Shown here: one piece after another, positions 2,394 to 16,221 of the stretch
How the letters are laid out: each line of letters opens with the position of its first letter
Position numbering within the stretch: position 1 is the stretch's first letter
From: a virus
Direction: 5' to 3' (one strand)
Virus record (IMG/VR): IMGVR_UViG_3300017963_000635
Coordinates: 1-28,922 of that record
DNA: 28,922 bases
Made by a program: the position numbers and the translations under genes
The notes under the pieces: model-generated
Database searches by the model: none
What the model was told of the DNA's origin: nothing
Seen by the model: the letters and a program-made list of their open reading frames with translations, nothing else

Positions 2394-2675
2394 ATGGTAA
2401 TAGAGAATAGTTTAATTGAAAATTCAAACATAAGTAGCGAAACATTTAAAATACTTTGTATAGGATTGTATGATCCTGATGGCTAGAAATGTGATAATGA
2501 TAATATTTTTAAATATTTTAAAGAGGATAGGGATTTAATCATTCCAGCTATTCAAGAGTTACTTGAATTGGGATATCTCCATATTTTTAAAGGAAGGTAT
2601 TTTTGGTTTAAAGATCCTGTCTCAGATGACTATTTCAAAAACTACATTGATAATCAGAAAAAAAATAACCTTTAA
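2394..2675 (+). pseudogene. Winged-helix-like ORF interrupted by an in-frame amber codon
   Basis: From ATG 2394 the frame reads MVIENSLIENSNISSETFK, then KILCIGLYDPDG, then TAG at 2484-2486. It continues open and protein-like (KCDNDNIFKYFKEDRDLI, AIQELLELGYLHIFKGRYF) to TAA at 2673-2675, 93 codons in all. The second half looks like the recognition helix and wing of a winged-helix domain, in line with the two winged-helix genes that follow. A TGG to TAG change would give DPDGWKCDN, so a nonsense mutation is the simplest explanation. TAG serves as the ordinary stop of several other genes here (portal, Cse60-like ORF, ejection proteins), so genome-wide amber recoding is unlikely. A sequencing error cannot be excluded. 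Confidence 0.6.
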
Positions 2676-2709
2676 TAAAATTGAAGGTTTGGCAATAGTG
2701 TAGTTTTTC

Positions 2710-2746
2710 AAAAAAAAAGTCCCGGTCACCAAAAGATGATCGGGAC
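2710..2746 (-). terminator. Intrinsic terminator reading leftward
   Basis: A 10-bp stem (2719-2728 with 2737-2746, one G-T pair) encloses the loop CCAAAAGA. On the minus strand it is followed immediately by nine T (plus-strand A run 2710-2718). This is a textbook intrinsic terminator, but for leftward transcription. No leftward protein gene ends here, so it may end a non-coding transcript from the structured element at 2763-2914, or block antisense reading. Confidence 0.6.
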
Positions 2747-2762
2747 AACCTCACAAGGAGGT

Positions 2763-2914
2763 AACTTATTTCTATATCTCAAGAGGATATAAATACGAAT
2801 GTCGGGGGATTACACCGGTCCCCAAAAGTTTTCTTTCTATATCACAAAGAATGAAAACTATATTAAAAACTAAAACAGGTGTAGTTTACCCTCTTGAGAT
2901 ATAGAAATCAAGTT
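2763..2914. other. Large structured inverted-repeat element (candidate origin or ncRNA)
   Basis: A perfect 19-bp inverted repeat, 2768-2786 against 2890-2908, extends through AACTT/AAGTT with a one-base bulge to 24 paired bases. Its 103-base interior holds two further hairpins. One is GGGG (within 2804-2808) with CCCC (2820-2823). The other is AGTTTTC (2827-2833) with GAAAACT (2853-2859), which continues inward by TTC/GAA. The 288 bases between the amber-broken ORF and the first replication gene contain no convincing gene. Position just upstream of replication initiator-type genes suggests an origin. The leftward terminator next to it suggests a roughly 170-base RNA on the minus strand. Neither is proven. 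Confidence 0.55.
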
Positions 2915-2963
2915 ATTTCGTTGTGAAAGAATTTGTATTGAAATCTAAACCAGAGGAAATGTT

Positions 2964-3323
2964 ATGTCGATTGCGCAAACTACAGATTCACAAGAACAAC
3001 TAGACGTTGTTGATCATTCTTCTTTACACCACTACAGAACAGAAATCCCTAACATAATCTTTCAGTTGGGTTTGTCTGCTTATGAGATATCTTTGTATTT
3101 AGCTATAAAAAGAACGGCCGGAGATCGTGGTTGGTCTTTCATAGGAACAAAAAGATTAGCCAAAGAATCTGGAATGTCTGAAGGAAAAGTTTCTCAGGTG
3201 AAAAAAGATTTAACCAAGCCACACGATCTTCTTAATGGAAAATCACTTATCACAATCACAAAACGTAAAAGAGAAGATGGGGGGAATGCGACAGATTTGA
3301 TAGAAATTACAGATGTATTGTGA
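2964..3323 (+). CDS. Winged-helix DNA-binding protein, replication module
   Basis: A 119-residue protein with a single winged-helix domain. The sequence LSAYEISLYLAIKRTAGDRGWSF gives the first helix, TKRLAKESGMSEGKVSQVKKDL is the helix-turn-helix, and LITITKRKREDGG is the wing. This is the architecture of DnaD/O-protein N-termini that bind phage origins. There is no C-terminal helicase-loader-binding part, so it is about a third the length of the next gene. GAGG lies 7 bases before the ATG. Its 40-base leader and first four residues (MSIA) match those of the next gene, pointing to an old tandem duplication. It could be a regulator or an accessory origin-binding protein. Confidence 0.7.
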   Translation: MSIAQTTDSQEQLDVVDHSSLHHYRTEIPNIIFQLGLSAYEISLYLAIKRTAGDRGWSFIGTKRLAKESGMSEGKVSQVKKDLTKPHDLLNGKSLITITKRKREDGGNATDLIEITDVL

Positions 3324-3359
3324 AAAATTTATATTAGAAACTGAATTGGAGGAAATGAG

Positions 3360-4337
3360 ATGTCGATTGCACTATTCACAGCACCAAATTGGACTCAGGT
3401 ACCAAACCTTCTTCTTGATGAGAAGATGAGTCAGGTTTCACCAGCAGAATTTAAATGTATAATGTTGATTACGAGAAAAACGGTTGGTTTCCATCGCCAA
3501 ATGGCTCGGATATCTCTTAAAGAATTCACAATAAAATGTGGGTTGTCAAAACAGGGGGTTTTGAACTCTATAAACAATTTACTTGAAAAAGGGTTTATAA
3601 AAAAAACTAAACAAGATGGTTACGAAGAGGCAAATCAATATGGGTTGAATGTTTTATATCCTGAAAATTCAGATGATGTAAATTCAATAGACCCTATAAA
3701 AAAACACCCAGTAAACTCAGTGGCCCAAAGGGTAAACCAAGTAGACGGGAGGGGGGTAAAAGAAGTTGCCACTATAAAAGAAAAGAAGAAAAGAAAAGAT
3801 AAAGAAATAATACATAATGCTCAGAGCCCGGCAAAGCCGACTCATGAGCCGAAGAATGACGATTTTTTCTTTGATCAAAATTTGAAAGACTTTGTCGGAA
3901 TCTCTGAAAAGGACATGGCCGATTGGAAAGAAATTTACAAGCACATTGATGTGCGATCGGAGATCTTAAAGGCAAAGCAGTGGGTCATCGCAAACCCATC
4001 AAAGAAAAAGAAACTGTGGCGGAAGTTTCTCACCACTTGGCTCAATAAGGCAAACGACTGCGCAGAAAACAAAAAGGCCTACAGACAGAACACGTTTCAG
4101 CTCGATGGAAACGACAGCTTTGTTGATTGGATGGATAATTTTTACAAGGAGGTGAGGGAATACGTCTCGAAAGATTGGATCTTTGAGTACAACTTCGAGA
4201 AAAAGTATATCTTGTATGGGGGATCAATCCGTCCAAGAACGATCGACTGGAGTAGGCAGAAATTAGACGAAAACATCATAAAAAACGATTTACAAAAATA
4301 CCTAAATTACTTAAAATCAATGAAAAAGAACAGTTGA
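3360..4337 (+). CDS. Phage replication initiator (O-like, winged-helix N-terminus)
   Basis: A 325-residue protein. Residues about 10-95 form a winged helix (VSPAEFKCIMLITRKTVGF, then FTIKCGLSKQGVLNSINNL, then the wing), as in phage replication protein O and related replisome organisers that bind the origin. A Lys-rich linker (EKKKRKDKE) separates it from a C-terminal region. That region contains ILKAKQWVIANPSKKKKLWRK followed by FLTTWLNKAND, a W-x-np-x-kk-x-FL-x-WL pattern typical of phage initiator C-termini that contact the helicase or its loader. GGAGG lies 7 bases before the start. It follows the shorter winged-helix gene by 36 bases in the same operon. No helicase or loader gene is in the window, so host or outside genes must supply it. 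Confidence 0.82.
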   Translation: MSIALFTAPNWTQVPNLLLDEKMSQVSPAEFKCIMLITRKTVGFHRQMARISLKEFTIKCGLSKQGVLNSINNLLEKGFIKKTKQDGYEEANQYGLNVLYPENSDDVNSIDPIKKHPVNSVAQRVNQVDGRGVKEVATIKEKKKRKDKEIIHNAQSPAKPTHEPKNDDFFFDQNLKDFVGISEKDMADWKEIYKHIDVRSEILKAKQWVIANPSKKKKLWRKFLTTWLNKANDCAENKKAYRQNTFQLDGNDSFVDWMDNFYKEVREYVSKDWIFEYNFEKKYILYGGSIRPRTIDWSRQKLDENIIKNDLQKYLNYLKSMKKNS

Positions 4338-4903: not shown

Positions 4904-5158
4904 CTAATTCTCCTCAAATGAACATTCGTTACACCTACCATCTGGCATAACATAACCAGACTCACAAGAAGGGCATCTATCAACCCACTCTACATAAACT
5001 TCGTCATACGCATCACACCATTGCTCTTTTGAATACCCTCTTTGGTCTAACATCTCAGATATGCAGTCACAAGAAGACTCTTTATCATCAAAGAGCTCAA
5101 ATACACCTTCTCTAACTTCAACACAAAACTTATGATAACTCACTACCAAACTCCTCAT
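4904..5158 (-). CDS. Small protein with C-terminal zinc-ribbon-like Cys pairs
   Basis: An 84-residue ORF (from the ATG at 5158) ending with CPSCESGYVMPDGRCNEC, two Cys-x-x-Cys pairs that could bind one zinc ion. The N-terminal part is acidic. The start is uncertain. A GTG at 5143 has AGGAG 7 bases upstream and would give a 79-residue protein starting at SYHKFCVEV. The ATG at 5158 has only a weak site. Either way it overlaps the 3' end of the preceding gene, so the two are probably coupled. No function can be named. Confidence 0.65.
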   Translation of the reverse strand: MRSLVVSYHKFCVEVREGVFELFDDKESSCDCISEMLDQRGYSKEQWCDAYDEVYVEWVDRCPSCESGYVMPDGRCNECSFEEN

Positions 5159-5390
5159 TTAAAATCTCTACTAAGTCCTGATAGCTATCACAAGCACAGA
5201 TACAAGCAAGCTCTTCTATCTCTTTTTTATCTAAGTCTTCTACAGACTCACCATGAGAGCTAAAACACCCCCAAGGACTCGCGCTTTCACTATCTATCTC
5301 CTCAAAATCAATAGAAAATTTATCGTCTAAACCAAGCTTACGTAGTTCTTCATAAAAACAATCAAAAAAATATTGGTCTTTATTTTCCAT
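5130..5390 (-). CDS. Small acidic protein of unknown function
   Basis: An 86-residue, very acidic ORF (MENKDQYFFDCFYEELRKL; then SVEDLDKKEIEELACICACDSYQDLVEIL). AGGAG lies about 7 bases before the ATG, with a second AAGGA directly before it. It is the first gene of a leftward operon whose promoter lies at 5426-5454, and its 3' end contains the ribosome site of the next gene. No family is recognised. The whole operon encodes small acidic proteins, as early host-takeover loci often do, but function is unknown. Confidence 0.65.
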   Translation of the reverse strand: MENKDQYFFDCFYEELRKLGLDDKFSIDFEEIDSESASPWGCFSSHGESVEDLDKKEIEELACICACDSYQDLVEILNEEFGSELS

Positions 5391-6695: not shown

Positions 6696-6704
6696 GGATT
6701 TTTA

Positions 6705-8003
6705 ATTATTCCGGAACTTATCCTTCCATACAACTTTACTCCAAGACCGTACCAGATACCGGCTCTAAAAGCGCTCGATGATGGATATAAAAGACTTTTG
6801 CTCACACATCATCGGCGCGCCGGGAAGGATATGCTTTGCATAAACATGATGATTAGAGAAATGTACAAGAGAAAAGGATACTATTTGTATCTCTTTCCTG
6901 ATGCAGGTCTCGCAAGGCGTGTGATATGGAATGGTGCAACAAAAGATGGCTTTCGGTTCTTAGATTTCTTTCCTGAAGAGATCATTGTAAGAAAACAGCA
7001 GCAAATGATGACCGTTGAGCTTGATAATGGCTCGATTTTCCAGCTCGTTGGATCTGATCGCTTTACTAACGTCGGTATCAACCCTGTCATGGTTGTTTTT
7101 TCTGAGTTCAGCTTGCAAAATCCGATGTGCTGGAACTTAATCAGACCAATTTTAGCTGAAAACGATGGAATAGCCATCTTTAACGGGACGCCTAGGGGTC
7201 GCAACCATTTTTACGATCTCTATGAAATGTCTAAACGCAATCCGGATTGGTTTGTGCAGAGACTTTCCGTTGACGACACAAAAGCAATTCCGCTTAAGGC
7301 GATAGAAAAAGAGCGTCAATCTGGTATGAGCGAAGAGCTGATTCAACAGGAGTTCTATACCTCTTTCTCTCGAGGTGTAGAGGGGGCATACTACGGTCGT
7401 CTCATTGAAGAGGCAAAAGCGCAAGGTCGTGTAGGAAAAGTTTCTTACAATCCTCAGGTGAAAGTTAATGTTGGCTTTGACTTAGGTATGAACGACAGCA
7501 CGTCGATTTGGTTTTGGCAGCAAGTTGGGCAAGAGGTTCATTTCATCGATTACTACGAAAACAGCGGGGAGCCACTCAGTCACTATGCGAAGGTACTACA
7601 AAATAAAGATTATGTTTATGGTGATACTTGGCTCCCTCATGACGCTAAAGTTCGTGAGCTCGGAACAGGCCTTAGTCGTGTGGATGTTTTTCGCTCTTTG
7701 GGGATTACTCCGCTTATTGTACCCAGTATTGGATTGATGGACGGGATCGAGGTTGTTCGTGGTTTACTGCCCCGCTGTTGGTTTGATGAGGATAAGTGTG
7801 AGTATGGGATCAAGTGTCTTGAGATGTACCATAAGGATTATAATCCGAAAAGAGAGGTGTACTCTGACCGCCCTTGCCATGATCGCTGGTCACATGGAGC
7901 TGATGCGATGAGAATGTCTGCTATCGCGATATCTCGTGGAAATCTTGGAGAAGGGATTAGTGGTGAGGAGTGGAACAAGATTAGACAGAGGAATATTTAC
8001 TAA
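6705..8003 (+). CDS. terL: Terminase large subunit, apparent AUU start
   Basis: The packaging ATPase/nuclease. Residues 1-42 read IPELILPYNFTPRPYQ then HHRRAGKD, the Q-type adenine motif and Walker A. VMVVFSEF is a Walker B of the terminase type (S-E). GFDLGMNDSTSIWFW begins the RNase H-like nuclease domain, and a late HDRWSHGADAMRM segment supplies a further metal ligand. The frame has no ATG, GTG or TTG before Walker A. The first TTG (6798) would delete the N-terminal PRPYQ motif. GAGGA (6695-6698 region) lies 6 bases before ATT at 6705, so an AUU start giving 432 residues is the best reading. It overlaps nothing and follows the phosphoesterase stop by nine bases in the same frame. Confidence 0.85.
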   Translation: MIPELILPYNFTPRPYQIPALKALDDGYKRLLLTHHRRAGKDMLCINMMIREMYKRKGYYLYLFPDAGLARRVIWNGATKDGFRFLDFFPEEIIVRKQQQMMTVELDNGSIFQLVGSDRFTNVGINPVMVVFSEFSLQNPMCWNLIRPILAENDGIAIFNGTPRGRNHFYDLYEMSKRNPDWFVQRLSVDDTKAIPLKAIEKERQSGMSEELIQQEFYTSFSRGVEGAYYGRLIEEAKAQGRVGKVSYNPQVKVNVGFDLGMNDSTSIWFWQQVGQEVHFIDYYENSGEPLSHYAKVLQNKDYVYGDTWLPHDAKVRELGTGLSRVDVFRSLGITPLIVPSIGLMDGIEVVRGLLPRCWFDEDKCEYGIKCLEMYHKDYNPKREVYSDRPCHDRWSHGADAMRMSAIAISRGNLGEGISGEEWNKIRQRNIY

Positions 8004-8017
8004 AAGGAATTAATTTA

Positions 8018-8197
8018 ATGAATTGTTCTTGTATCTGTGATTGGTGTAATGCCTTGATTGAATATTGCGTTACTCAAGGCGAGGGATTCGAGTCTAGAGA
8101 AGAGTCTCCGCTGGCCACACCTGAAAAACCAGAACAAAAAACAGAATGGCAGGTGTACTACTCACCTGAACAAACTTGGAGAAAAGAAGATGAGTGA
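8018..8197 (+). CDS. Small Cys-rich protein
   Basis: A 59-residue ORF beginning MNCSCICDWCNALIEYC, five cysteines in the first 17 residues, then a hydrophilic tail ending in YYSPEQTWRKEDE. AAGGAA lies about 9 bases before the ATG. Its last eight bases overlap the start of the next gene, as expected for coupled small phage genes. The Cys spacing could make a small zinc knuckle. No family recognised. A competing longer frame starting at 8058 is discarded because this gene and the downstream start at 8190 explain the region better. Confidence 0.6.
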   Translation: MNCSCICDWCNALIEYCVTQGEGFESREESPLATPEKPEQKTEWQVYYSPEQTWRKEDE

Positions 8198-8414
8198 TGA
8201 ATGTTGTGAAGTTGGAGATATCTATCAAATAAACCCGGAGCACGATGAGATTTTTGGGGCTTGTCTGATGATTGTAACTGAACCAAAACCGTGGGGGGCG
8301 CAAGGATACTTTAACGTTCCCGGTGAAGGTCTTGCTTTTTATCGATGCAACTTTGAAGATATGGAGAGCGTTGGAAAAGCATCTTGGATTAGGAATGAAG
8401 AGGAGTCTGATTAA
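8190..8414 (+). CDS. Conserved small phage protein following terminase
   Basis: A 74-residue ORF: MSDECCEVGDIYQINPEHDE, then FGACLMIVTEPKPWGAQGYF and a final AFYRCNFEDMESVGKASWI. The pattern VGD-x-V-x-I-x-P-E-H-D-E-x-F-G-G, followed by a strand-rich middle with WG-x-QGY and a G-K-A-x-W ending, is one I know as a recurring phage hypothetical near terminase genes. It looks like a small beta barrel. GGAG sits about 8 bases before the ATG at 8190. The frame is open upstream to 8058, but that part overlaps the preceding gene and reads like non-coding shadow. Function unknown. Confidence 0.7.
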   Translation: MSDECCEVGDIYQINPEHDEIFGACLMIVTEPKPWGAQGYFNVPGEGLAFYRCNFEDMESVGKASWIRNEEESD

Positions 8415-8416
8415 GG

Positions 8417-8656
8417 ATGGATGATTTTGAAAGAGACGATCAAGCCAAAAAGGTTATGAAGTTGTCTGAAAGATTTATAGAATATTTTAAAGAGAATGAA
8501 GTAGACCCATCTGTTGCATTACCAGCTCTTCTTTTTTCTTCTGCGTTTTGTAGCTTTGAGCTTTTTAATGATAGAGAAAAATTTTTATGTGATTGCAAAA
8601 GAACTTATGAACTTATTGAAAAACTTTACAAACTTGAAAATTTGAGGACATTATGA
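8417..8656 (+). CDS. Small helical protein of unknown function
   Basis: A 79-residue, largely helical, acidic ORF (MDDFERDDQAKKVMKLSERF; LPALLFSSAFCSFELFNDRE). AAGGATGG immediately precedes and includes the start, with the stop of the previous gene two bases upstream. Its own end overlaps the next start as ATGA. No domain recognised. Tight packing in the operon is the main support. Confidence 0.6.
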   Translation: MDDFERDDQAKKVMKLSERFIEYFKENEVDPSVALPALLFSSAFCSFELFNDREKFLCDCKRTYELIEKLYKLENLRTL

Positions 8657-12678: not shown

Positions 12679-13632
12679 TAACCTATACGGGTCGACGTAA
12701 AATGTCTCTAATTCGGGGAAACTCCGCAAAAGGACAATCCCGAGCCAAGCCGAAAAGGAAGGTGTAACGACTATGAAGTTCAAAAACAAATTGGAATTAA
12801 AAGGTGCAATCATAGGAATGCTTTTAGGTGATGGATACATACCAAATTCCGGAGTTAACAAACTAATGAGAATCAAAATGAAGTCAGCGCATAGAGAATA
12901 TTTTATGTTTAAAAAGGATATTCTTGAAAATGTATGTTCTCTAAAGACTTTCCTTGGTGAAACAAATGATCGATGGGGAAAAGTAACATTTTCTGATCGT
13001 TTATCAACAAAGACAAATCCATTATTTACACAGCTTAGAGAGCACATGTATCACGATGGCAGAAGAACTGTTGATGAACATGTGATGAAGTGTCTGACAC
13101 CTCTTGGAATGGCTCTATGGTATCAAGATAATGGCTCCTATGCAAAAGGTTCTGGTTATGGAGATGTTATTCTCTGTACAGATGCATACAGTAAGACAGA
13201 ATGTGAAATGATGGCAAGAGAGCTTCAAAAGAGGTTTAAGCATCAGTGGAGAGTTTATAGAAGAGTTAGAAAGAATAAAGATGGTGAAAAATTGTACTTT
13301 TATCGTCTTTATCTTCGTAAAAAAGACCATGAATACTTCTTCAAACTCATAGATCCATTCGTTGTTGATTGCATGAAATATAAACTGAAACGTGATGATG
13401 TTGATGTCAAAGCTTTCAGGGGAACAAGAGAAGAGAGTATTATTTGCCCTGTCTGTAAAAAAGAGTTTAAACGATTCAAATCTCAGAAAGGTAAGTATTG
13501 TTCGAAGGAGTGTTTCAAAAAATTCCACAGAACTTCTCAACGGGACACAGCGAAAGCTGAAGATATAGTCTGATCTTCATAGGAATATGAAGGGTTTGTA
13601 GAAATGTAAACCATTAACACTTAAAGCCGGAG
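12679..13632 (+). ncRNA. Group I intron in the major capsid gene
   Basis: A 954-base insertion with the marks of a group I ribozyme. P1: exon bases 12673-12677 pair with 12692-12696, and U12678 with G12691 as the splice-site wobble. P5-like hairpin CGGGGAAACTCCG. Q-like element around AATCCCGAGCCAAGCC. P7: GACTAT (12769-12774) pairs with ATAGTC (13565-13570), the latter inside the classic GAAGATATAGTC element. P9: CTTCAT (13575-13580) with ATGAAG (13587-13592). P9.1: GGTTT (13593-13597) with AAACC (13608-13612). The terminal G is most likely 13632. The last base is inferred from reading frame and could be one base off (13633, giving Phe in place of Val). Confidence 0.85.
12773..13573 (+). CDS. 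LAGLIDADG homing endonuclease encoded in the intron
   Basis: A 266-residue protein with two LAGLIDADG-type helices, GAIIGMLLGDGYI (D20) and LGMALWYQDNGSY (D119), so a monomeric two-motif enzyme. A C-terminal Cys4 element (C225, C228, C243, C247) may add DNA contacts. Such enzymes cut intron-lacking alleles of the capsid gene so that repair copies the intron in. The ORF lies exactly between the two P7 strands. The ATG overlaps the 5' strand and the last codons before TGA encode the 3' strand, so ribozyme core and protein termini share bases. AGGTG about 10 bases upstream is the only ribosome site. Confidence 0.9.
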   Translation: MKFKNKLELKGAIIGMLLGDGYIPNSGVNKLMRIKMKSAHREYFMFKKDILENVCSLKTFLGETNDRWGKVTFSDRLSTKTNPLFTQLREHMYHDGRRTVDEHVMKCLTPLGMALWYQDNGSYAKGSGYGDVILCTDAYSKTECEMMARELQKRFKHQWRVYRRVRKNKDGEKLYFYRLYLRKKDHEYFFKLIDPFVVDCMKYKLKRDDVDVKAFRGTREESIICPVCKKEFKRFKSQKGKYCSKECFKKFHRTSQRDTAKAEDIV

Positions 13633-15363: not shown

Positions 15364-15945
15364 ATGGAAGAAGAAAAAAAAATATGTGATAAGTGTGGTA
15401 TTGAAAAACATCCATATCACCATAAAAGCGGAAGAATTCAGTGGGTTTGTAAACCATGTAGAAATAAAAGAGCTAGGAAGTGGAGAAAAGAAAACCCTGA
15501 AGAAGCAGCAAGAATAAGTAGACATTATGCAAGATTAGATAGAAAAAAAAATCCATTAAGACAAAGAGAAGCCAATAGAAGATATAGAGAAAAACATCCT
15601 GAAAGATATCTTCAACAGAAAAGAGAATGCGATAAGAAATATCGAGATAAAAGAAATAAATCATTAGTAGAATATAGAAAAAATAATTTTGAAAAATGTA
15701 GAGCTCATGACAAAATTAAATATGCAATAAAAAAAGGGAAAATAAAAAAATCAGAAAAATGTGAATTTTGTGGGGAAAAAGAAAAATTACATGGACACCA
15801 TGAAAATTATGAAAAACCACTAGAAGTAATTTGGTTATGTAGTAGATGTCATGTAGCTATTCACAAAATGAATGAGATAAGAAAAAGTAATGAAATAAAA
15901 AAGAATCTAGAAAAAGAGGCCCAAGATGACAAAAGTTCTTTATGA
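15364..15945 (+). CDS. Free-standing HNH endonuclease
   Basis: A 193-residue, very basic protein. The N-terminus is a Cys4 finger (ICDKCGIEKHPYHHKSGRIQ, then WVCKPC). The middle is Arg/Lys-rich and helical. The C-terminus is an HNH nuclease: CEFCGEKEKLHGHHENYEKP and WLCSRCHVAIHK, with the paired CxxC motifs binding zinc and the HH supplying the catalytic histidine. GGAGG lies 5 bases before the ATG. It sits alone between a terminator and the next structural gene, and its 3' end overlaps the start of that gene by 20 bases. This is the usual situation of a homing endonuclease that has invaded intergenic DNA. It is far more A-rich than its neighbours, a sign of separate origin. Confidence 0.88.
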   Translation: MEEEKKICDKCGIEKHPYHHKSGRIQWVCKPCRNKRARKWRKENPEEAARISRHYARLDRKKNPLRQREANRRYREKHPERYLQQKRECDKKYRDKRNKSLVEYRKNNFEKCRAHDKIKYAIKKGKIKKSEKCEFCGEKEKLHGHHENYEKPLEVIWLCSRCHVAIHKMNEIRKSNEIKKNLEKEAQDDKSSL

Positions 15946-16129: not shown

Positions 16130-16156
16130 AAAAACCCCCTAGTGGCATCTAGGAGG
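16129..16156 (-). terminator. Hairpin with T-run on the leftward strand
   Basis: CCCCCTAG (16135-16142) pairs with CTAGGAGG (16149-16156), seven pairs with one mismatch, loop TGGCAT. On the minus strand it is followed by six T (16134-16129). There is no T-run on the plus strand, so as a terminator it points leftward, the second such structure in the window after 2710-2746. Confidence 0.35.
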
Positions 16157-16221
16157 TAAGAGGTTTAAAGTCATGTTTTTAATTTTATTTAACTTATGGA
16201 AAAAAGACAAAGGAAAGTCGC

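Follow-up and report, generated by a model that had tools for sequence, protein, structure and literature searches.

The long inverted repeat at 2751-2926 and the intrinsic terminator at its left edge may together form one leftward transcription unit, lying at the position that pO-oop-tO holds in phage lambda and giving an oversized structured RNA. This is the explanation that we prefer, tentatively and at a little short of an even chance. The window, meaning the whole stretch of DNA that was analysed, is an IMG/VR virus record of 28,922 bases with 39% G+C, and its source is an uncultured, P22-like phage. The repeat, the terminator sequence, the gene order and the iterons in the O-like gene are observed, and the promoter, the transcript and its antisense action are inferred. 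In favour of the leftward RNA, only 4 bp separate the top inverted repeat of the record from its strongest intrinsic terminator. Four other readings are weighed below where the evidence bears on them (in falling order of probability, a protein-binding DNA element, a rightward mRNA leader, a replication origin, and an insertion or invertible segment); the ranking of all five is a matter of our judgement and was not computed.

The strongest inverted repeat of the record

The repeat consists of two arms:

2751..2789 (+), left arm of the long inverted repeat, with its core at 2768-2789; it pairs with 2887-2926 and includes TTTCTATATCTCAAGAGG
2887..2926 (+), right arm of the long inverted repeat, with its core at 2887-2908

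The two cores, of 22 nt each and 97 nt apart, are 95% complementary with one mismatch, and if one bulge and a few mismatches are allowed, pairing reaches outward as far as about 2751 on the left and 2926 on the right, giving about 40 bp per arm in an AT-rich element. With a score of 19.5, this is the top-scoring inverted repeat in the 28.9-kb record; the maximum among dinucleotide shuffles was 16.0, and none of the 100 matched the element's score. The inverted repeat that a sequence-only reading had placed at 2763-2914 is thus borne out and is larger than was claimed. Folded as RNA, the element gives z -9.6 on the + strand (2740-2940) and z -8.4 on the - strand (2700-2940), and the DNA fold gives z -8.8.

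A second, separate assembly carries the element unchanged (99.99% identical, with one base differing in 12.8 kb, at 2973), so that an assembly accident is ruled out. Relatives were sought in viral contigs with the portal, TerL, O, 2964 and capsid proteins, with alignments of two to three sequences and with one DNA pattern, and further in genome contigs, by blastn against phages and plasmids, and by tblastn against phages. These searches returned the near-identical twin and three partial relatives (L027, L116 and L117), the O region being absent from the latter three, and no diverged relative with the element region. The 18-bp tandem repeats at 1-67 of the window, in a leftward ORF for a repetitive protein (DALVYGN-type), continue in L006 at 7955-8421, and this repeat region is about 450 bp long in the twin contig.

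The arms around a 97-bp interior are outwardly like invertible switches or small insertions, and the element could accordingly be an insertion remnant, an invertible segment or a functionless, neutral inverted duplication. We consider this the least probable of the five readings, and very improbable in itself: among 2.9 million viral contigs the repeat pair occurs only here and in the near-identical twin, no inverted orientation was seen, there is no recombinase or transposase among the genes scanned, and the fit to the terminator and to the gene boundary would be accidental. A mobile repeat was rejected on the same distribution, a good inverted core pair occurring only in the twin besides the window.

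A leftward terminator beside the repeat and a candidate promoter beyond it

The proposed leftward unit is made up of the following features:

2710..2746 (-), intrinsic terminator, with stem GTCCCGATCATC-TTTT-GGTGACCGGGAC (2746-2719) followed by T9; -16.3 kcal/mol
2942..2970 (-), candidate leftward promoter TCGACA-17-TAGATT, with a -35 that overlaps the start of the coding sequence of gene 2964
2710..2935 (-), inferred leftward RNA of about 227 nt, with a 5' end of about 8 nt, a 40-bp hairpin and the terminator

At the threshold used, a scan of both strands gave only two intrinsic terminators in the record, both leftward, and the one at 2746-2719 is the stronger, so that the earlier claim of a strong leftward terminator here is upheld by the sequence. 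The terminator faces left amid rightward genes, and a leftward transcript must therefore come in from the right. Only the element separates it from gene 2964; since the flanking genes are rightward, it is most likely the stop of a leftward RNA whose start is within the element or immediately to its right. Read-through from the two leftward ORFs at 4904-5390 could also reach it, but would need to cross the O gene. The record's other strong intrinsic terminator (16134-16157, -) faces left as well; it follows an HNH ORF (15364-15945) and lies within the rightward structural operon.

The best minus-strand promoter candidate in 2750-3000 is TCGACA-17-TAGATT, from which transcription is predicted to start near 2935, just beyond the right arm. 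It ranks 23rd in the record, and its score is not significant alone, with about 0.1 such sites expected, by rank, per 250 positions. As a control, the scorer ranked lambda pO (38711-38683) first among leftward promoters in lambda's cI-O region, in agreement with the published placement of the pO -10 at 8-13 nt right of 38,675 (PMC5869508).

The RNA predicted between this start and the terminator folds to -79.8 kcal/mol as one long hairpin followed by the terminator, and no ORF of at least 20 codons lies wholly within 2710..2935 on the - strand. Its 3' end (about 2710) stops about 35 bp short of the upstream ORF, whose stop is at 2675, so that it cannot be antisense to that coding region, a point against the leftward RNA. 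A leftward structured RNA, one of two readings offered earlier, is favoured by the adjacent terminator, a plausible promoter from which a transcript would bracket the repeat, and a lambdoid gene order.

Gene neighbourhood and candidate replication origin

To the right of the element lie two genes and, within the second of them, a candidate origin:

2964..3323 (+), gene for a 119-aa HTH_36-like protein, flanked by the element and the O gene; its HTH_36 match (E 1e-4) falls narrowly short of the Pfam cutoff
3360..4337 (+), gene for the O-like replication initiator; matches phrog_678 with E 2.8e-20 and Phage_rep_O with 35.8 bits, against a cutoff of 28.7
3678..3815 (+), candidate lambda-type origin in the O gene, with iterons at 3678, 3711, 3732 and 3756 and a purine/A-rich tract at about 3774-3815

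Leftward from about 2114 run genes with RecE/YqaJ and ERF recombination domains. Rightward come the gene for a ribbon-helix-helix-like regulator (2186), an interrupted ORF (2394), the HTH_36-like gene (2964) and the O-like initiator (3360), followed by TerL, P22-type portal, capsid and tail genes; no tRNA genes were found in the 28,922-base window. With the element between 2394 and 2964, this order fits the lambdoid one, 2964 sitting at the position of the lambdoid 'orf' and 2394 being cII-like by position only. Between the two gene sets, identical promoter-like sites (TTGACT-17-TAACAT at 2116-2144 and 2163-2135) stand face-to-face in one inverted repeat with overlapping -10 boxes, and are probably the divergent early promoters. 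The ORF at 2394-2675 (+, 93 codons, at the cII position) has an in-frame TAG at about 2484, the same in the second assembly, and this phage probably has a broken copy of the gene or else reads through the TAG; TAG recoding was ruled out, as TAG ends 7 of 32 genes.

Two winged-helix replication genes had been proposed to follow the element. Of these, 3360 is O-like, its Phage_rep_O match being above the cutoff; 2964 has a sub-threshold HTH_36 match only, and the predicted structure of its protein is poor (mean pLDDT 38). That 2964 is a duplicated O DNA-binding domain was considered and set aside as weak (hhalign E 0.09; nothing by BLASTP), even though the two genes have similar leaders: 2927-2985 and 3323-3381, covering the leaders and first codons of 2964 and 3360, form a 59-nt direct repeat (73%) that starts from the element's edge and is a local duplication.

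Two observations concern the structural genes. The terminase large subunit frame has no ATG, GTG or TTG ahead of the ATPase motif HHRRAGKD (6696-6798, +), and may use a rare start codon or another upstream arrangement. At 12707-13592 (+), a LAGLIDADG ORF (12773-13573) is surrounded by group I intron matches that stay below the Rfam threshold (33.6 and 25.5 bits), and it directly precedes a capsid gene without an N-terminus; there is probably an intron in the major capsid gene at this place.

The other reading offered earlier was a phage replication origin, at which the repeat would be extruded or bound to start replication. The element does adjoin the replication genes, is AT-rich and has three repeat copies. 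However, the O-like gene has a lambda-type origin anatomy of its own: its iterons, GTAAA-type repeats whose score is reached by 1 of 500 codon-preserving shuffles, occupy the part of the gene that matches lambda's four iterons in O, and with the A-rich tract that follows them they give 3678-3815 the arrangement by which a lambda-type ori is recognized, iterons inside an O-like gene and then an A-rich tract. At the element itself, searches for DnaA boxes (allowing 1 mismatch), primosome-assembly hexamers and IHF consensus sites gave nothing. An origin at the element is therefore disfavoured, and we judge it improbable.

A third core copy and the fold of the interior

The interior of the element holds four features:

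2834..2847 (+), third arm-core copy TTTCTATATCACAA, in left-arm orientation, 13/14 identical
2805..2823 (+), inner GC-rich hairpin GGGGATT-ACACC-GGTCCCC, in the + strand fold; weak against shuffles and not preferred on the - strand
2827..2859 (+), inner A/T-rich hairpin AGTTTTC/GAAAACT, which holds the third core copy; predicted on both strands
2799..2873 (+), 24-codon ORF MSGDYTGPQKFSFYITKNENYIKN within the element

The arm core, TTTCTATATC[TA]CAA, is thus present a third time, a copy that the sequence-only reading had missed. It agrees with the arm at 13 of 14 positions, far beyond chance, with 11/14 as the best among 300 shuffles of the interior and none reaching 12; in the rest of the record, every match to the core has at least three mismatches. 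This copy has no role in the leftward RNA model. It would have one if the element acted as DNA and offered a phage DNA-binding protein three copies of a site, two inverted and one direct; candidates for this protein include the O-like protein, the ribbon-helix-helix regulator of 2186 and the 119-aa HTH protein of 2964. The element would then be an operator, an auxiliary replication site or a looping site, and the RNA hairpin a by-product of the inverted sites. In keeping with this, the core is the best-conserved part of the arms, the outer parts having diverged, and AAACTACA is found four times between 2639 and 2984. However, pairing goes well past the core in both directions and spans about 40 bp, more than a mere duplication of sites would have to produce; the neighbouring leftward terminator is left unexplained; and none of the known binding motifs tested (DnaA, IHF, LexA, primosome) matches at the element. 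We place protein binding second to the leftward RNA, as a serious alternative that is nevertheless rather unlikely.

The strand preference of the fold bears on another alternative, in which the + strand hairpin would act in cis as a structured leader of the rightward early mRNA, e.g., as an RNase III site separating the regulator mRNA from the replication mRNA, or in translation control of 2964. Over 2748-2928, the + strand folds at -71.2 kcal/mol versus -62.1 on the - strand, better by about 9 kcal/mol. Folded alone, the interior gives z -2.4 on the + strand (5 of 200 shuffles equally good) and z -0.9 on the - strand (42 of 200), which favours a different fold. The two inner hairpins described earlier therefore find weak support on the + strand only and do not go beyond shuffles on the - strand. 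That the hairpin and inner hairpins are better supported on the rightward strand counts against the leftward RNA. The flanking genes are also rightward, and a good rightward promoter candidate lies at 2116-2144. Yet the hairpin stops about 27 bp before the Shine-Dalgarno of 2964, leaving it uncovered, and the leftward terminator is not accounted for; a leader role is, in our estimate, unlikely. In the same interior, the loop ACACC of the GC-rich hairpin is complementary to GGTGT at about 2879-2883, and the 24-codon ORF is a possible leader peptide, of a size within chance expectation by estimate.

Proposed action of the leftward RNA

The evidence thus divides, with the adjacency of the terminator speaking for the leftward RNA, the + strand fold for the rightward leader and the third core copy for protein binding. 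In the leftward unit that we prefer, transcription would begin near 2935, where the first replication gene starts, pass through the repeat and halt at 2710, yielding about 227 nt of non-coding RNA. Most of this RNA would be the 40-bp hairpin, and it would be complementary to the leader of the rightward mRNA for gene 2964 and the O-like initiator. Pairing with this leader would lower or time initiator expression. The sense RNA would itself fold into the complementary hairpin, so that loop-loop contact could start the pairing, and RNase III would cut the double-stranded RNA. Transcription converging on the rightward early promoter may be a second route, as has been reported for lambda pO, which reduces transcription from pR and affects replication (PMC3985674).

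Comparison with lambda oop and other known systems

The proposed unit resembles lambda pO-oop-tO in its leftward direction, in its place after the second early rightward gene and before the O-like gene, in its intrinsic leftward terminator, in a promoter candidate at the start codon of the next gene, from which it would oppose the rightward early transcript, and in the origin iterons inside O. It differs in size, with about 227 nt predicted versus 77 for oop, and in the 40-bp hairpin body, which oop lacks; lambda oop is antisense to cII, whereas the RNA predicted here has no overlap with the upstream ORF, and its leftward transcript is a prediction. The 33-nt sequence conserved among lambdoid phages (PMC3349717) gave no matches with up to 3 mismatches allowed. 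The element is not counted as a member of the oop family, since it has neither the 33-nt sequence nor the 77-nt size and would not overlap the gene upstream. By analogy, the element occupies oop's position and would work there if transcribed, with no identity with oop implied. The candidate origin at 3678-3815 is like lambda ori in its four mid-gene repeats in an O-like initiator, followed by an A/purine-rich tract, and unlike it in repeat sequence and in the first spacing (33, 21 and 24 bp here versus 20, 24 and 23 in lambda).

Leftward terminators are found at most 300 bp upstream of O in 5 of 34 O-homologue loci, with one more at -301, and rightward ones in 0 of 34. These loci are non-redundant and include lambda and the window's twin, and lambda tO was recovered by the terminator script. 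Leftward terminators thus recur ahead of O, and in the window one precedes the pair 2964-3360. In the Salmonella prophage BTP1, a candidate non-coding RNA, OOP-BTP1, lies in the corresponding position (PMC7067206). Rfam gave no matches in the window at the gathering score, and sub-threshold matches in 2600-3000 had E 0.17 or worse. The earlier statement that no named RNA class has this layout is therefore right for the structure; the position, though, is that of lambda oop.

It has been debated why lambda pO/oop acts on replication in addition to cII (PMC3985674, PMC3349717). If the leftward reading is true, a diverged phage keeps the leftward unit by the initiator, gives up the upstream overlap and enlarges the RNA to a 40-bp hairpin, which would suggest that the replication side of pO/oop is the older or more general role. 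The case also shows that gene order offers a way to approach unnamed structured phage RNAs where family models fail.

Phage early mRNAs have hairpins that are processed by RNase III, and the element is like them as a long, near-perfect hairpin between early genes of an operon. It is unlike them in that the candidate here would act from the + strand, with the leftward terminator unexplained. In the CopA/CopT system of plasmid R1 repA, an antisense RNA of about 90 nt, CopA, is complementary to the leader of the initiator mRNA, and both strands fold into complementary hairpins. The likeness here is one of layout alone, with a predicted RNA of about 227 nt and a 24-codon ORF in the leader that is perhaps there by chance. 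The locus might, as a long shot, be an R1-like initiator operon, in which the antisense hairpin RNA of about 227 nt and the rightward leader hairpin would meet by their loops and set the initiator dose; that the 24-codon leader peptide in the hairpin is the switch belongs to the same joint claim and shares its low probability. If the R1-like reading were true, what sits at the position of lambda oop would be an antisense RNA for replication control, and not a regulator of cII.
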